Source of the DNA: Pedobacter cryoconitis
GTDB taxonomy: Bacteria > Bacteroidota > Bacteroidia > Sphingobacteriales > Sphingobacteriaceae
Direction of reading: 5' to 3'
DNA length: 64,000 nucleotides
Assembly (NCBI RefSeq): GCF_014200595.1
Contig: NZ_JACHCG010000006.1
Location: 62,001 to 126,000 of the forward strand
The notes beneath the pieces were generated by a model. That model made no database searches and was not told where the DNA came from. It saw nothing but the letters and a program-made list of their open reading frames with translations. Position numbers and translations under genes: made by a program. Position 1 is the first letter of the stretch; each line of letters starts with the position of its first letter. Shown one piece after another: positions 54,952 through 64,000 of this stretch.

Positions 54952-56733
54952 TCAGGATTTGTTGTATTGCCAGAATGGGGATTGATTAAAATCCCACCAG
55001 TCTTGTGCGAGCTTGTTTTGCAGTGCAGCCCAGTAAGGGTCGTTTTGATCAAATCTGAAGGCATAACGCAACAAACTATAGCAGGTTGTAAATTGCCCGG
55101 CTGCTATTAATGCAGCAGGCCTGTTTTCTGCAAGGTGGTTTTTGTCAAACCAGAGTGATGTATCCATTTCTGTTGCCAGTTCGGCTACTTGCTGCAAACA
55201 CGGCGCGGGCTTCATCAGCTCGGTTAAGTTCATTTTTTTTCCATTAATCTGTACAGTCAGGTTCTTTTTATACCAGGGTTCACTTTTAAGATCTGCGATT
55301 CGCTGACAATCATTTTTAGGGCTCAGTGAGTAGATGGCATTCATCAGGGTGAACTGCCGCCAATGTTTTAGTTCTATTTGCTGCACTAAAGTTTCTTTTT
55401 CACCTTTTTTCAATAAGGTACCATCAGCTTTGAGCTTCCGTTCAGAAATCTTCTCAAATAATCTATCATATGATACTCTTCTTATCTTTTTTAGAAATAC
55501 AATCGCAGAAAGATAAGCTACTGAGGTAGCACGTGAAATAATCAGCTGTAAAAGAACACTGAGCCGCAGGCGTAAGAAATAGGAGATGCGACCAAGAATA
55601 ACGATACCATAGGTCTGTTTCTTATCCTGTACTTTTTGATAAGCGAAAAATCCGGTGATGGAAAAATAAAGGGTGGTCAAAAGTAAGGCAGCACTGATTC
55701 CTAAAAGTGAAAATGATAATTCAGTAAAAGTTTTAGTCAGTACCCCGGTGATACATAGTCCGGTGAACAGGATTAAAATAAGCAAATATTGAAGCAGGTT
55801 AAGCCTTTGCAGCCAGCTCTTTTTATTTTCTTCAGGGAAATTATAACCACTGGTATAGTTACTGCTCACATCACAGGTAATGTACAGATCATAGCCAAAT
55901 ACATTTCTGTTCTGAAGCCTTTCTTCTGCTTTTGTAAAAGAATCGATCCCCTGGTTATCATCAATTCCACCATCCATTAGTACAAAATGGGGGGGAGGGA
56001 TGACGGGTTGTTCTCCTTTGTCTGGTGAAAAACGCGGGTCTGTTTTAATCGCAGCTTCCAGATCGCTTTTACTTAATTGGTTATAGGTGAAATCATTTGG
56101 AAATACGAAAGGTTCAAAACCTACCGGGAAACAGGAAGAGCAGGCTAATATATCAGCGAGCTTAATTTTCTTCAGGGTCTCCAATGCAACGCGCTCTGCT
56201 TTAAATCTAAGGAATTTATTTCCTGGCAGACCCGCATTCTGAAAACGAAAGAGCATACCATTGTCAAATTCGGTTGCATTGGCGCAAACTTCTTTAACCC
56301 CGTTTTTAACAGGTTTCCAGTAAATACCAAATACCTCTTCTTTAAAAAGCAGTTCATCGTAGGCAATTGAAAAAGCATTGATGATGTTCCTTGATTTATG
56401 AGGCCGTTTTTTCCAGGCGCTTTCAGCATTGAGAATTTTAAAAACACGGTCAATTAATTTAGTTCCGTGCAAAATATGCTTATTCATATGATCATAAAAT
56501 TCATCGAAAGGTTGTCCCTTCCGCTGGCTGGCTGTATAGGCTAAATTTGTAATAGTCCCGCCCGAGGCAGAAGAAATGAAATGAACGAGGGAAGTCAGCT
56601 TTTTACCATCGATATAAACAGTCTCCATATAGGACAAACAGCCCAGTGAGTAAGATGCTGCCCGAAAACCACCGCCTGAAAAGCTTAATGCAATATGTTC
56701 AGGTTTTCGTGGTTGAAGCACTGAATATTCCAT
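54952..56733 (-). CDS. Patatin-like phospholipase with central membrane helices
   Basis: A 593-residue protein without a signal peptide. The N-terminal patatin fold has the oxyanion loop SGGGFRAAS near residues 19-27, the nucleophile elbow SSASGGT with Ser57 (the first Gly of GxSxG is replaced by Ser55), and the catalytic Asp254 in MDGGIDDNQG. After the lipase domain come at least two strong hydrophobic segments at about residues 315-375 (LLQYLLILILFTGLCITGVL and LLGISAALLLTTLYFSITGFF), then a basic cytoplasmic-looking tail. It is probably an inner-membrane-anchored lipase. Function unknown; could remodel phospholipids. Convergent with the LytTR gene. Confidence 0.85.
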   Translation of the reverse strand: MEYSVLQPRKPEHIALSFSGGGFRAASYSLGCLSYMETVYIDGKKLTSLVHFISSASGGTITNLAYTASQRKGQPFDEFYDHMNKHILHGTKLIDRVFKILNAESAWKKRPHKSRNIINAFSIAYDELLFKEEVFGIYWKPVKNGVKEVCANATEFDNGMLFRFQNAGLPGNKFLRFKAERVALETLKKIKLADILACSSCFPVGFEPFVFPNDFTYNQLSKSDLEAAIKTDPRFSPDKGEQPVIPPPHFVLMDGGIDDNQGIDSFTKAEERLQNRNVFGYDLYITCDVSSNYTSGYNFPEENKKSWLQRLNLLQYLLILILFTGLCITGVLTKTFTELSFSLLGISAALLLTTLYFSITGFFAYQKVQDKKQTYGIVILGRISYFLRLRLSVLLQLIISRATSVAYLSAIVFLKKIRRVSYDRLFEKISERKLKADGTLLKKGEKETLVQQIELKHWRQFTLMNAIYSLSPKNDCQRIADLKSEPWYKKNLTVQINGKKMNLTELMKPAPCLQQVAELATEMDTSLWFDKNHLAENRPAALIAAGQFTTCYSLLRYAFRFDQNDPYWAALQNKLAQDWWDFNQSPFWQYNKS

Positions 56734-56848: not shown

Positions 56849-58918
56849 TTACTTTAAAACCCATTCTATCGTATCTGTAAAAGTTTTACTATCCTTTTTC
56901 GCAAGGGTTTTAATACTGTTTTTGCCCTTTTTTAAATGAACATCTTTAAAAATAAACTGTACGCTATTTGTACCCTGTATGGGTTGAACGGCAATCATTT
57001 TTCCATTTACAAATAATGCGGGCTGTCCGATATTTGAATAAACCACAACCGGGGTTACTGCATGTTTACGCTCCACTACACGGCGCTCTGTTAAATATAA
57101 TACAGGATCTTTACTCCAGTTTGCTTTATACCAGTAAAAAGCGTCCTTTTTTAATTGACGATCAAAAGTCACCAATCCTTTCATATTTCGGGCTGGCATA
57201 CCACCCCTGTTCCACATTGGAGTAGCAAAATCAAACATATTCCAAATATATGATGCCGCTATCCCAGGGTGTTTTGCAATAATAGGCCACTGTACCTCAT
57301 GCGTTTTAGTCTCAAAGCTCTCAGGGTAAAATGCGGCCGTATAATCATAAGCATCTTTCAGGTCTGTTTGTTCCTGCTGTTGAAAAATATTACCATCTGC
57401 CCCATATTCAGTCAGAATAACTTTATGAGCAGGATATTTAGTCTCTATTTCCTTTGCCCAATCTTCTAAATTTCCAATCTTACCCTCATACCACCCGTAA
57501 TAACGATTCATTCCCTGTATGTCGGCATTTAAATTAGTAGGCCGGTCCATTTCCCCATAACCACTTACGCTTACGGTATAGCGATCAGGGTCTTCTGTTT
57601 TTGCGATATCATTCAACTCGCGGGTCAGCACCGCAGGGAAATCTGAAGGAGTCTTTCCATAAACTTCATTATGTAAGCCCCAGACATAGAGCGAAGGATG
57701 GTTGTAGTTCTGCTTAATTAGTTCCATCAACTGTTGTTTTGCATTATCCGCCTCTTCTCCTGTACTGGTATTGACAAATGGAATCTCTGCCCAGGTTACA
57801 AAGCCCATAGTATCACAAGTGGAATATAAATATTCTGCCTGCTGATAGTGTGCAAAACGTATAGTCGTCGCACCCATCTCTTTGATGATATCTAAATCCT
57901 CTCTATGCTGTGCATTGCTCAATGCATTGCCAAATTGCCACCTGTCCTGATGTCTGCAAACTCCATGCATCGGATACAGCTGATTATTTAAAAAGAAGCC
58001 CTTTCCGGCAATAATTTCGAATTTACGCAGACCCAGTGGTTGCGTTACTTTATCAATAACATCATGCTTACGCAGCAATTTTGTGATCACTTTATAGAGA
58101 TAAGGATTTTTTAAGCCATTCCATAGATGTGGTTTTTGTAACTGGAAATGCTGGACAAACTTTTGCCTGCCCTGCGTCGTAATTTTTTGAGGAGTCGTTT
58201 GCGCAGCTACAAGTTTTCCTGCCTGATCATAAAGCTCTGTTTTGATGGAAATATCCTGCCAGCTGGTTTCTATATTCTCAACTTTAACAGCGACACTCAC
58301 CTCCGCAGATTCAGCACTGACATTTTTTTGGGAGATATAAATACCCGGAGCAGCATAATCTGTAGTCGTAATGTTCACTTTATTGGTCACCAGCAAGCTC
58401 ACCGGACGATAAATTCCACCATAAATACCAAATAAGAAGTGATTGACGGGGATAATATCTTTGCGTGCCTTATTGTTCACTTTTACAAGAATTGTGTTTG
58501 CTTCTCCGATTTTTACCGCGTAAGTAATATCCAGACAAAAAGCACTATAAGAACCTTTATGCATGCCAACCAATTTTTGATTTACATATACTTGTGCCAC
58601 TTGTCCAACTCCTTCGAAACGCAGGAATAAACGTTTGTCTTTGTATTCCCTGCCAAATACAATTTGCTTTTTATACTGACCTTCTCCCTCGTAAAAGTCT
58701 TTGGTGAGCTGCATATCGGTTGCATTCCAGGTATGGGGTAAGGTGACTTTTTTCCAGTCACTTTGTCTTTGGACGGTGTCATTTGTTTTGCTGAACATCC
58801 AGTCCTGATTAAAAGATATAGTTTTCCTTGCCTGTCCGGAACTGGAAAAACTGAGTGTGGAGAAAAGGCAAATAAAGGTTAAAATAAGATTTCCGGGTTT
58901 CAAATGAGGAGGTATCAT
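56849..58918 (-). CDS. Glycoside hydrolase family 2 beta-galactosidase-like enzyme
   Basis: A 689-residue exported enzyme (signal peptide region LILTFICLFSTLSFSSSG). It has the GH2 sandwich (LPHTWNATD near residue 60, LRFEGVGQVAQVYVNQKLVG near residue 100), an Ig-like domain, and the TIM barrel with acid/base Glu418 in GLHNEVYG and nucleophile Glu504 in ILTEYGADG. A C-terminal DUF4982-like domain (VVYSNIGQPALFVNGK) is present. The closest functional guess is beta-galactosidase, though other exo-beta-glycosidases of GH2 are possible. It starts 3 bases after the GH29 stop on the same strand, so the two are one operon acting in the periplasm. Confidence 0.92.
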   Translation of the reverse strand: MIPPHLKPGNLILTFICLFSTLSFSSSGQARKTISFNQDWMFSKTNDTVQRQSDWKKVTLPHTWNATDMQLTKDFYEGEGQYKKQIVFGREYKDKRLFLRFEGVGQVAQVYVNQKLVGMHKGSYSAFCLDITYAVKIGEANTILVKVNNKARKDIIPVNHFLFGIYGGIYRPVSLLVTNKVNITTTDYAAPGIYISQKNVSAESAEVSVAVKVENIETSWQDISIKTELYDQAGKLVAAQTTPQKITTQGRQKFVQHFQLQKPHLWNGLKNPYLYKVITKLLRKHDVIDKVTQPLGLRKFEIIAGKGFFLNNQLYPMHGVCRHQDRWQFGNALSNAQHREDLDIIKEMGATTIRFAHYQQAEYLYSTCDTMGFVTWAEIPFVNTSTGEEADNAKQQLMELIKQNYNHPSLYVWGLHNEVYGKTPSDFPAVLTRELNDIAKTEDPDRYTVSVSGYGEMDRPTNLNADIQGMNRYYGWYEGKIGNLEDWAKEIETKYPAHKVILTEYGADGNIFQQQEQTDLKDAYDYTAAFYPESFETKTHEVQWPIIAKHPGIAASYIWNMFDFATPMWNRGGMPARNMKGLVTFDRQLKKDAFYWYKANWSKDPVLYLTERRVVERKHAVTPVVVYSNIGQPALFVNGKMIAVQPIQGTNSVQFIFKDVHLKKGKNSIKTLAKKDSKTFTDTIEWVLK

Positions 58919-58921
58919 AAA

Positions 58922-60367
58922 CTAAGTTTTTGCTTTTTCATAGGTCTTGCTGTTGCCATCTGTTGATTTTGTTGTTTCCAGTACGATTACAAAAGGTTGC
59001 TTCTCATTGGTTGTTTTCAAATGGATGAAGCTTTCGTTTGCCTGAATTGCTTCGGGCATAAATGTCTGTTCTTCCTGACCAAGCCTGTAGGCTTTTAAAA
59101 TGCTGGTTTGAGCAGGTAACTTAACCCTGAGCGCCCCTGATACAGGGACATTAAAAACAAGCATGTAAATTTTGTCAGTGCCTGTTTGCCTGGTGAAATA
59201 TCCCCAGTTCTGAGTGTCAAGGCCGGCATACTCACAATTATAAATCGCTTCGTGGTTCACTGCCATCCAATTACCTGTCTCTTTAGCAATAGCCAGTTCT
59301 TCTTTGCGGATTGACCCCTCACCATCTGGTCCGAAATTCAAAACAAAGTTACCATCCAGTGAAACACACTTAGCCAGCATTTCCAATAGTTCATCAGTAG
59401 TTTTAATATGGCCTTCCCAAGCTTTGCTGTAGCCCCATTGATTTTCGGGAATTGTCATTACACAATCCCAGTCATTTCCATGAACATCATTGATTGTGGC
59501 AGGAATTTTACGCTCCCAGCCTTGTTCATAATCACCCATTAAATGTCTGTTGCTATCAAAGTGGCGTTTGCCATTTTCATCTGCACGGAAACGGCTTCCA
59601 ATAATTAATCCCGGATGTAACTTACGCATTTCAGTTTCCAGACCGTCTGCAAAAGCTGCTTGTTTTGTCCAGGATTTATCCCAGGTTCCATCGAACCATA
59701 ATCCTTTTATGGATGGATATCGGGTAAGCAATTCCAGTAATTGGTTACGGGTGAATTTTTTAAAACGTTCAAATGCAATACTGTCAGCTGGAGTCTTGAT
59801 TTCGTAACGCCAGTCGGGATTATTCCAGTCCATAATGGAAAAATAAAGGATCACATCAATTCCAGCTTTATGATAGGCATCAACAAGTGGTTTGATAATA
59901 TCTTTTTTATAAGGAGAGTTGGCAATGGTATATTTTGTATACTGACTTGGCCACAAACAGAAACCATCGTGATGTTTGGTAGTAATGGTTACATATTTTA
60001 CACCCATTTGCTTTGCGGTTGCAGCCCATGATCCGGCATCAAATTTCGTAGGGTTAAAGTGGTTAATCAAAGAATCATAAGCCGGTTTTGGCATTCCATC
60101 CCACGAGCGTATCCATTCTGAAGCTCCATGATATATTTTACCGTTCCATTCTCCGCCTGGAATAGCATACAGTCCCCAATGAATAAATTGACCCAGGCCA
60201 TAAGCGCGCCATCTGGCCATATCAGCATCTGTTCTGCGGCCAATACGGTGTGCGCCATGTTTCAGCATGGCTTCGCCGTTATTTATTACTGTTTGCTGTG
60301 TATAACCTATTTGATGAATCAGCAAGGTGATCAGGAAGATCAGTATGACTGGTTTAATGGACTTCAT
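58922..60367 (-). CDS. Glycoside hydrolase family 29 alpha-L-fucosidase
   Basis: A 481-residue exported enzyme (signal peptide MKSIKPVILIFLITLLIHQIG). GH29 landmarks are GLGQFIHWGLYAIPGGEWNG near residue 55 (quoted by HWGLYAIPGGEW), TTKHHDGFCLWPS near residue 133, and the nucleophile Asp226 in GLWFDGTWD. It removes alpha-L-fucose from glycans in the periplasm; a wider range of alpha-linked sugars is possible for subfamily B. First gene of the GH29-GH2 operon; tandem palindromic operators lie upstream at 60453-60487. Confidence 0.93.
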   Translation of the reverse strand: MKSIKPVILIFLITLLIHQIGYTQQTVINNGEAMLKHGAHRIGRRTDADMARWRAYGLGQFIHWGLYAIPGGEWNGKIYHGASEWIRSWDGMPKPAYDSLINHFNPTKFDAGSWAATAKQMGVKYVTITTKHHDGFCLWPSQYTKYTIANSPYKKDIIKPLVDAYHKAGIDVILYFSIMDWNNPDWRYEIKTPADSIAFERFKKFTRNQLLELLTRYPSIKGLWFDGTWDKSWTKQAAFADGLETEMRKLHPGLIIGSRFRADENGKRHFDSNRHLMGDYEQGWERKIPATINDVHGNDWDCVMTIPENQWGYSKAWEGHIKTTDELLEMLAKCVSLDGNFVLNFGPDGEGSIRKEELAIAKETGNWMAVNHEAIYNCEYAGLDTQNWGYFTRQTGTDKIYMLVFNVPVSGALRVKLPAQTSILKAYRLGQEEQTFMPEAIQANESFIHLKTTNEKQPFVIVLETTKSTDGNSKTYEKAKT

Positions 60368-61178: not shown

Positions 61179-64000
61179 ATGAAAAATGTTACGCTCTTGC
61201 TCTTCTTTCTATTCAGTGCTGTTTTCGTTAAAGCACAGGATTCTCTAAAATACCGCGTCATCTTTATCGGTGATGCCGGAGAAATGAATGTTGCACAAAG
61301 AGAATCTTTGAAAAACGCAGCCAAACATGTAATTGCCGGAAAAACTACAGTGATGTACCTGGGGGATAATATCTACCCAAGAGGAATGGGTTTACCCGGA
61401 AGTAAAGAAGAAGAAACAACTAAACAGATTCTGCAATCTCAATTTCAGCCGATGCGTCAAATGGGAGCTGCGGTTTATTTTATTCCGGGAAACCATGATT
61501 GGGATAAAATGGGGCCGGATGGTTTGGCTAAAATCATACGTCAGGGAGAATATCTGGCTGAGCAAAATGACTCTTTATTAAAAATGATCCCGCCAAACGG
61601 ATGTCCTGATCCTACAGCAATCCAACTCACAGACAATTTAACGATTATTGCTTTTGATAGCGAGTGGTGGTTATATCCTTACGCTAAACAAAATCCCGAA
61701 TCTGAGTGCAGCTGCAAGACTAAAGATGATGTGATTGCCCGGATGCAGGAATTGCTGGAAGCTAACAGAGGGAAGATTATTTTATTTGCTGATCATCACC
61801 CATTGCAGAGTTATGGTGCGCATGGTGGATATTTCACTCTGAAAAATCATATTTTCCCTTTAACCTCGCTGAATAAAAACCTATATATCCCTTTACCTGT
61901 TATCGGCTCACTGTATCCTTTGTTGCGGTCTTCCTTTTTGAGCCCTGAAGACCTGAAGCATCCCTTTTATAAGGATATGATTAAAAAGATAAACGGGGTT
62001 TTCGGCGCTTATCCGAATCTTACTTATTTTTCAGGACATGATCATGGTTTACAGTTGATTAAAAGTGAAGAGCTTAATCTACAGGTTGTGAGTGGTGGCG
62101 GAGCTAAACATTCAGCCAATAAAAAGGGTAAAAACTCTATTTTTCAAGAATCAGAACAAGGTTATGTAATTGCCGATTTGCTGATGAATAATGATATGCG
62201 CTATGATTTTTACGTGTATACAGAGATTGGTGTCAAAAAGGTATACAGTTATACTAAACCTTTTGTACCTGTTCCCCGTGAATCCGGAAATACAGTTAAA
62301 GTGATCACAAAAGATAGTATTTCTATCAAAATATATCCAAAATATGATAGTGTAAGTAAAGTTCACCGTTTCTTTTTCGGAGAGAATTACCGGAAAGAAT
62401 ATGCGCTGGAAACTAAAGTGCAGGTAATCAGGCTTTCTGAGATTAAAGGCGGTTTGACACCGCTGCAACGGGGTGGTGGATTTCAGTCACACTCTTTGCG
62501 TATGGTGGATAAGCAAGGGAAAGAATGGGTATTAAGAAGTGTAGAGAAATATCCTGAATCATTGTTGCCAGAGAATCTGAGGGAGACTTTTGCGAAAGAT
62601 ATTTTAAAAGATAACATGTCCGCGCAGCATCCGTTTTCGGCATTAATTGTACCGGATATTGCTGAAGCAGTTGGTGTAGCACATGCTAATCCAATTATCG
62701 GATGGATTTCTCCGGATGCTAATCTGGGTAAGTACGGAAGAGTATTTGAAAATACGCTTTGTCTTCTGGAAGAAAGAGAGCCAACTGGTAAGTCTGATAA
62801 TACTTATAAGATGTATAAGAAACTGGCTAAGGACAATGATTATACTTATGATGGGCCTCAATACCTGAGAGCGAAAGCATTGGATATTGTGATCGGAGAT
62901 TGGGACAGACATTTTGATCAATGGAGATGGACGCTTGATAAAACAGGAGACAGAGAAGTTTATCAGCCAGTTCCACGTGACCGTGACCAGGTATTTTACT
63001 TAAGCCAGGGACTTATTCCAAGATACGCGCAGTCTTCTTATTTACTGCCAATGATTCAGGGCTATGAAAGAAATGTGAATGATGTAAACTGGTTTGTCTG
63101 GGAAAGCAGGGCTATGGCAACCCGTTTATTAAGTCAGTTATCAGAAAAACAGTGGATGGATATCATTCATACTTTTTGTGCGAATTTAACGGATGAGGTG
63201 ATGGAGAAAGCATTAAGAAAACTTCCGGAACCGGGTTATTCTTTACGTCATGATCAGCTGCTGGCGCAATTGAAGGAAAGAAGAGCAAAACTACCTGAGA
63301 TGATGAATGAATATTATCATTTCTTAAATAAGATCGTAGACATACAGGCGAGTGATAAAGGAGAGCTGATAGAAATTTCGGATGCTGCTGGTGGCGGATT
63401 AACAGTGAACATACACCAGTTATCTAAAAATAAAAAGGTGAAAGAGCAAATGTTCATCAAGACCTTTGATCCGAAAATTACGAAAGAAATCAGGTTATAT
63501 ACCCACAACGGAAATGATAGCCTTGTTATAAACAATAAAGGAACTGATATTAAATTACGCATTATCGGTGGTCATGGAATTAAAGCTTATCATTTAGAAA
63601 ACGCTTACCATAAAGTAAAACTTTACGATAAGATTGATAGTGCTGTTTTTACGGGTGAAACCAGCAGATTTACTAAAATACTATTTAATGATACTGGCAA
63701 TGTTTCTTATAAACAAACAGATTTATATCATAGAAGTATGTATTTGCTGAATGGAGGATTTAACAAGGATGATGGATTATCATTAGGCTTCTCTGTTAAA
63801 TTTATGAATCCCGGGTTCAGGAAATTTCCTTATGGAAATACACAGCAGTTTTCTTTTATTCACTCTTTTAGTACGAAGGCTTTTAAGTTTGATTACCGCG
63901 GAGAATGGATGCACACTTTCGGAAAAGCAGATTTGATTTTGCAGGCCAGTGCTTATGCGCCGCACAATACACAGAATTTCTTTGGTGCGGGGAATGAAAC
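61179..64000 (+). CDS. Exported metallophosphoesterase fused to a kinase-like domain and a probable beta-barrel (3' end outside window)
   Basis: An open frame of 940 codons with no stop before the window edge. It starts MKNVTLLLFFLFSAVFVKAQ, a signal peptide. Residues about 25-330 are a calcineurin-type phosphatase: IGDAGE, YLGDNIYP, PGNHDWD, ADHHPLQ and SGHDHGLQ hold the metal ligands. Residues about 380-680 look like an atypical kinase domain: EWVLRSVEK near residue 450 (possible ATP-binding Lys457), GDWDRHFDQWRW with Asp576-Arg577-His578, and PRDRDQVF with Asp601/Asp603 as a DFG-like pair. After that, beta-rich sequence (from about residue 840) looks like the start of an outer membrane barrel. 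Similar long proteins with a surface-antigen-like barrel occur in Bacteroidetes; the biochemical role is unknown. Confidence 0.85.
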   Translation, partial: MKNVTLLLFFLFSAVFVKAQDSLKYRVIFIGDAGEMNVAQRESLKNAAKHVIAGKTTVMYLGDNIYPRGMGLPGSKEEETTKQILQSQFQPMRQMGAAVYFIPGNHDWDKMGPDGLAKIIRQGEYLAEQNDSLLKMIPPNGCPDPTAIQLTDNLTIIAFDSEWWLYPYAKQNPESECSCKTKDDVIARMQELLEANRGKIILFADHHPLQSYGAHGGYFTLKNHIFPLTSLNKNLYIPLPVIGSLYPLLRSSFLSPEDLKHPFYKDMIKKINGVFGAYPNLTYFSGHDHGLQLIKSEELNLQVVSGGGAKHSANKKGKNSIFQESEQGYVIADLLMNNDMRYDFYVYTEIGVKKVYSYTKPFVPVPRESGNTVKVITKDSISIKIYPKYDSVSKVHRFFFGENYRKEYALETKVQVIRLSEIKGGLTPLQRGGGFQSHSLRMVDKQGKEWVLRSVEKYPESLLPENLRETFAKDILKDNMSAQHPFSALIVPDIAEAVGVAHANPIIGWISPDANLGKYGRVFENTLCLLEEREPTGKSDNTYKMYKKLAKDNDYTYDGPQYLRAKALDIVIGDWDRHFDQWRWTLDKTGDREVYQPVPRDRDQVFYLSQGLIPRYAQSSYLLPMIQGYERNVNDVNWFVWESRAMATRLLSQLSEKQWMDIIHTFCANLTDEVMEKALRKLPEPGYSLRHDQLLAQLKERRAKLPEMMNEYYHFLNKIVDIQASDKGELIEISDAAGGGLTVNIHQLSKNKKVKEQMFIKTFDPKITKEIRLYTHNGNDSLVINNKGTDIKLRIIGGHGIKAYHLENAYHKVKLYDKIDSAVFTGETSRFTKILFNDTGNVSYKQTDLYHRSMYLLNGGFNKDDGLSLGFSVKFMNPGFRKFPYGNTQQFSFIHSFSTKAFKFDYRGEWMHTFGKADLILQASAYAPHNTQNFFGAGNE

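Follow-up and report, generated by a model that had tools for sequence, protein, structure and literature searches.

A kinase-like fold joined to a phosphatase and an Omp85 barrel in an exported protein of Pedobacter cryoconitis

Described relatives of the protein

Among Omp85 outer-membrane proteins, the 'Metallo' subfamily is defined by a PF00149 domain N-terminal to the barrel, and the domain is termed a metalloprotease there (Heinz and Lithgow 2014, PMC4104836); the main text of that paper nowhere uses the word 'kinase'. Here we describe a gene of this layout from Pedobacter cryoconitis, which lies at the end of a stretch of 64,000 nucleotides ("the window"; positions 62,001 to 126,000 of contig NZ_JACHCG010000006.1, assembly GCF_014200595.1). 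Its open reading frame, 61179-63998 on the forward strand of the window, overruns the window end and meets a stop in the genome after 1201 residues, i.e. at 64784. The protein consists, in order, of a signal peptide, a PF00149 metallophosphatase domain, a middle region, a small all-beta domain and an Omp85 barrel, the last matched by PF01103 in a Pfam scan of the full protein (E-value 1.4e-9). An original prediction, made from the in-window letters, had joined a signal peptide, a phosphatase, a kinase-like region and a barrel in one protein and had called for the full gene; with the gene in hand the combination proves real, the export signal being recognised by eye and the phosphatase and barrel by Pfam.

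We favor the possibility that the gene product is a membrane-anchored envelope phosphotransfer protein, and put its probability at roughly 0.54. The computed basis for this consists of what looks like an export signal, a pair of enzyme folds that each retain their motif set, an Omp85 barrel and the linkage of the family to genes for the polyphosphate kinase PPK1 and for a protein termed HD-PycTM.

The present protein probably belongs to the same class as 'Metallo', judged by the published class definition. Literature searches confined to open-licence papers listed none that describes the fusion of a kinase-fold domain with Omp85; since the PF00149-Omp85 class is known and the fused kinase fold is undescribed there, a known barrel class contains an unrecognised kinase-like family. 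Where the published passages speak of a metalloprotease, Pfam names PF00149 a calcineurin-like phosphoesterase, and the domain here matches purple acid phosphatase. It has the fold of these enzymes and their full set of ligand motifs (GD-x-G / GDN-x-Y / GNH / HH / GH-x-H, here GD32AG, GD63N-Y66, GN105H106D, HH206-207 and GH287-H289) and is a complete binuclear domain of the purple-acid-phosphatase type. An apparently complete calcineurin-type phosphatase had been proposed, which stands but can be narrowed to this type. What sets the domain apart from purple acid phosphatases of the tartrate-resistant acid phosphatase type is its fusion with a kinase fold and with an Omp85 barrel. The class published as metalloprotease fusions would thereby be recast as one of phosphatase-kinase fusions. 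A Riemerella metallophosphoesterase, which appears in a review among type IX secretion effectors, was considered and set aside as presumably a different protein.

A kinase fold and its motif set

Scans of the in-window part of the protein against Pfam, NCBIfam and PHROG returned nothing for the middle region, and neither Pfam nor NCBIfam matched it in the full protein or in a paralogue from the same genome, which has 864 residues and carries the middle region and barrel without the phosphatase. Among 46 relatives Pfam gave scattered matches only, each in at most two members and with a best E-value of 0.0013 in one (25 of the 29 matched families are listed). The predicted structure of residues 376-870 (pLDDT 92.1, pTM 0.90) shows the two-lobed kinase fold of the protein-kinase-like superfamily, and its fold matches include type II phosphatidylinositol 4-kinase (PI4KII), CotH, CtkA, HipA and Golgi casein kinase, which we take to be of the Fam20 type. 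A longer model of 851 residues has a pTM of 0.75, with low-confidence stretches. The kinase-like nature claimed for the middle region is therefore supported, and a non-kinase fold, named in advance as the outcome that would refute it, was not what modelling found.

In weak profile alignments with CtkA, CotH or HipA (the CotH alignment was built from 24 of 25 loci, that of HipA from 23 of 25), DRH falls on the catalytic loop and DRD on the DFG-like columns, such that D576 takes the place of the catalytic aspartate and D601, together with D603, that of the metal-binding one. The three landmarks singled out earlier, EWVLRSVEK, DRHFDQ (near residue 576) and DRDQVF (near 601), fall at the end of a beta3-like strand, on the catalytic loop and on the DFG-like columns, respectively. 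On this model the middle region belongs to an undescribed family of kinase-fold domains and has an intact active-site motif set; we refer to it as the protein-kinase-like (KL) domain.

The CotH spore-coat kinases share this fold, but neither their profile (PF08757) nor that of HipA (PF07804) matched the full protein or the paralogue at E-values up to 10, or stands among the 25 of 29 families listed for the 46 relatives. Type II phosphatidylinositol 4-kinases, whose solved examples are human lipid kinases, match in fold with 11% identity and are absent from the profile-search listings of PDB sequences. The fold and the DRH catalytic-loop columns are common to the present protein, HipA and CtkA; HipA, however, is a cytosolic toxin-antitoxin kinase, whereas the present protein is exported, to judge from its apparent signal peptide, and has Arg453 in the HipA lysine column.

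Conservation was counted in domains from whole-protein searches only, since the search for our 80 loci had itself used the pattern DW[DN]R[HRS]x[DGE][QN]W. From 241 open reading frame hits we kept 164 domains, dropping identical ones and those covering fewer than 250 profile positions. A set of 81 domains combined best-scoring matches with 40 hand-chosen stretches and is biased to intact copies; as a counter-check we took 40 lower-scoring matches in long frames (at least 1150 residues), which are called fused by length alone. Set A1 omits L080 (a partial match) and one degenerate L076 copy (L and G numbers are our labels for loci and genomes), set A2 holds the window and 75 of the 80 loci, and set A3 the window and 31 of the 32 fused-protein loci.

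Within the 81-domain set, all 37 fused proteins, including that of the window, keep R453, K457, D478, E531, D576, H578, Q581, D601 and D603. D576 or D601 is gone in 6 of 31 kinase-barrel proteins, and these six have all lost R453, H578 and D603, with K457, D576 and D601 lost in four each; Ser replaces D576 in 2 of 13 kinase-alone proteins. The 40 further fused matches retain R453, K457, D601 and D603 without exception, H578 in 39 and D576 in 38, both exceptions having Gly, such that fused proteins overall keep D576 in 75 of 77 cases and D601 in 77 of 77. D569, G611 and R701 are invariant (164/164 and 40/40). For the most part, then, the motif residues are retained or lost as a group, which is what one would expect of an active site. 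A tandem kinase-barrel pair at L076 (5476-8115 and 8123-10690) has one copy without the motif set and one that keeps it.

Polyphosphate kinase linkage and a proposed function

The paralogue closes a same-strand run that encodes HD-PycTM, PPK1, an SdiA-regulated propeller lipoprotein and a protein whose GAF match stays below threshold. Over the 80 loci PPK1 was found in 38, HD-PycTM in 49, the SdiA-regulated protein in 42 and the GAF-like protein in 45; the corresponding figures for the 32 fused-protein loci are 22, 29, 26 and 27. The chance expectation for PPK1 is below 1% per locus by our own arithmetic (18 kb out of about 6 Mb, with no more than about two copies). In family f38, coordinates compared by hand show the PPK1 match and the gene 7-17 kb apart in 18 of 22 genomes, far from each other on one contig in two and on different contigs in two. 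We consider this linkage among the relatives a better functional lead than the surface glycans suggested at first.

Given the match to PI4KII, the kinase fold might act on lipids, or carry out other transfer chemistry such as adenylylation, with the phosphatase working on the same envelope lipids. This appears distinctly unlikely to us: a shared fold does not reveal a substrate, and PPK1 and HD-PycTM are far commoner neighbours than PAP2-type phosphatases, whose genes were found by clustering in 15 of 122 loci.

Under the phosphotransfer reading that we favor, the N-terminal phosphatase and kinase-like domains would face the periplasm, by analogy with other Omp85 proteins. The kinase fold would transfer a phosphoryl group to an envelope substrate, with a nucleotide or some other high-energy phosphate such as polyphosphate as donor, and the phosphatase would remove that group or clear the donor. 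With the two domains acting in opposition, a single outer-membrane anchor would bear the modifying as well as the demodifying half of a cycle coupled to the phosphate economy of the cell. The family may thus shuttle phosphate groups within the cell envelope, a place in which one would not expect ordinary kinases. If the domain is active, the conserved polyphosphate-kinase operon would gain a first functional lead, and phosphorylation of proteins or lipids beyond the inner membrane, along with its donor, would become directly testable.

Several observations weigh against the reading we favor: (i) hhalign probabilities against known kinases are only 7-13%, and unrelated chains score equal to CtkA in profile searches of PDB sequences; (ii) nearly all sampled genomes of the phylum have PPK1 (267 of 296), and therefore only linkage is informative and co-occurrence was dropped as evidence; (iii) the linked PPK1 loci are related by descent, and among 33 further loci of the phylum, hand-chosen for odd or spread architectures, PPK1 is present in only 6, HD-PycTM in 15 and a SixA-type phosphatase in 7; (iv) the window's own copy lies outside the PPK1 operon, as do L084 and L104, which are closely related to it (locus L007 does not extend far enough to judge), while somewhat more distant Pedobacter fusions sit inside it, and the window copy has therefore probably moved out or been acquired; (v) Arg453 occupies, in a weak HMM-HMM alignment, the beta3 lysine column of HipA, presumably that of the ATP-binding lysine, with conserved K457 four residues on, and arginine at this position inactivates many kinases; (vi) D576 or D601 is missing in 8 of the 81 domains and 2 of the 40 further fused ones, and those copies must therefore work without this catalytic set; and (vii) the periplasm normally has no ATP. 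Given Arg453, ATP is no more than a candidate ligand of the KL domain.

The arginine, the missing aspartates, the Q in place of N at position 581 (145 of 164 domains) and the scarcity of ATP outside the inner membrane would all suit a pseudokinase, that is, a non-catalytic sensor whose binding of a nucleotide, of polyphosphate or of a phospholipid would switch the phosphatase or barrel, leaving the phosphatase as the sole enzyme. We regard this as unlikely, because R453, K457, D601 and D603 are invariant in all 77 fused proteins from searches that did not use the motif, and because the decayed kinase-barrel proteins lose R453, H578 and D603 together (6 of 6), a pattern that suggests that a functional site is under selection in the intact majority. 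A bolder form of the phosphotransfer reading is an ATP-independent envelope kinase with polyphosphate or another non-nucleotide donor, in which Arg453 and Lys457 replace the usual lysine, the substrates are in the outer membrane and the fused phosphatase reverses the reaction. This is a long shot; if true, Bacteroidota would carry out reversible phosphorylation in an ATP-free compartment, fed by the linked polyphosphate kinase.

The HD domain plus PycTM (Pycsar-effector type) protein, as at L004:89-1372, is the commonest family neighbour among those counted. PADLOC matches it to Pycsar-effector models and gave no match for the full protein or the paralogue; we do not read this as evidence for phage defence here. 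At L091:11319-12600, HD and PycTM are two genes near a gene with a guanylate/adenylate-cyclase domain, an arrangement that suggests a cyclic-nucleotide signalling cassette around polyphosphate kinase. The conserved operon partner of about 790 residues at L004:4355-6706 has a sub-threshold GAF match only and no good Pfam model. At L069:1-7653 a kinase-alone gene is clustered with the end of PPK1, an APP1 phosphatase domain, an MgtC-like protein and a membrane pyrophosphatase, and CotH kinase matches lie 1.4 kb (G059:C15) and 2.3 kb (G109:C10) from a kinase-barrel match.

Features, architectures and distribution

Features of the gene, and the genes that precede it, as placed in the window
Feature	Coordinates	Strand	Remarks
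Patatin-like protein	54952-56733	-	name by eye; precedes gene
GH2-like glycosidase	56849-58918	-	name by eye; precedes gene
Alpha-L-fucosidase-like protein	58922-60367	-	name by eye; precedes gene
Sec signal peptide, residues 1-19	61179..61235	+	by eye from translation, without signal-peptide predictor
Purple-acid-phosphatase-type metallophosphatase domain, residues ~21-366	61239..62276	+	
KL domain, residues ~376-717	62304..63329	+	
R453-S-V-E-K457, end of beta3-like strand; R453 on HipA lysine column	62535..62549	+	model, HMM-HMM alignment
D478, acidic residue of alphaC-like helix	62610..62612	+	model; kept in 163/164 domains
D576-R-H-F-D-Q581, catalytic-loop equivalent	62904..62921	+	profile alignments
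D601-R-D603, metal-binding (DFG-like) equivalent	62979..62987	+	profile alignments
All-beta domain between kinase fold and barrel, residues ~718-840	63330..63698	+	secondary structure of predicted model
Omp85 barrel region, approximate start	63756..64000, on to 64784 beyond window	+	PF01103 residues 913-1164; NF047779 partial, sub-cut-off

Sorted by length, the 164 distinct domains fall into 69 phosphatase-kinase-barrel, 80 kinase-barrel and 15 kinase-alone proteins, two of the last being doubtful (L152 ends at a contig edge and L155 has an in-frame stop between the kinase-like part and the barrel). In two genomes of one genus (G094 and G290) the fusion gives way to three neighbouring genes, first the kinase-like, then the metallophosphatase-like and last the barrel gene, with Pfam confirmation at L064, which supports a joint function of the three parts.

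These architectures also bear on whether the barrel might deliver the phosphatase-kinase part to the cell surface, in the manner of type Vd export, to act on substrates outside. Such export has been proposed for PlpD and suggested for the 'Metallo' class as well (PMC4104836). We nevertheless hold it to be highly improbable: the separate kinase-like and phosphatase genes at L064 both have lipoprotein-like starts by eye, and flavobacterial kinase-alone proteins start with a single hydrophobic stretch, both of which fit the periplasm as well or better. Furthermore, the loop-6 RGF arginine of Omp85 proteins was found by a simple pattern in only 18 of 69 fused and 46 of 80 kinase-barrel proteins.

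The KL domain is present in 111 of 296 genomes sampled across Bacteroidota, and the protein had been called unusual; the domain combination is real, but it is not rare. The kinase-like superfamily would thus gain a family found in more than a third of these genomes and without a Pfam, NCBIfam or PHROG match. In a sample of relatives the domain occurs in 24 of 41 genomes, with 24 of 25 in its own genus (own genome counted) and none of the 16 that represent the remaining families of its class. When one genome per species was scanned, at least 586 relatives emerged. Those 80 that were kept all bear names of genera that we assign to Bacteroidota, except for one metagenome-assembled genome labelled Williamsia (L137); the closest are Pedobacter, and the nearest named among the matches listed is P. 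cryoconitis. No relatives were found on viral contigs. On plasmids they occur in 5 of 72,556 records, from Hymenobacter, Persicobacter and Parabacteroides. The in-frame stop at L155 belongs to Pontibacter ramchanderi (L155:8908-11490), where it splits the kinase-like part from the barrel in what is a broken or split copy.
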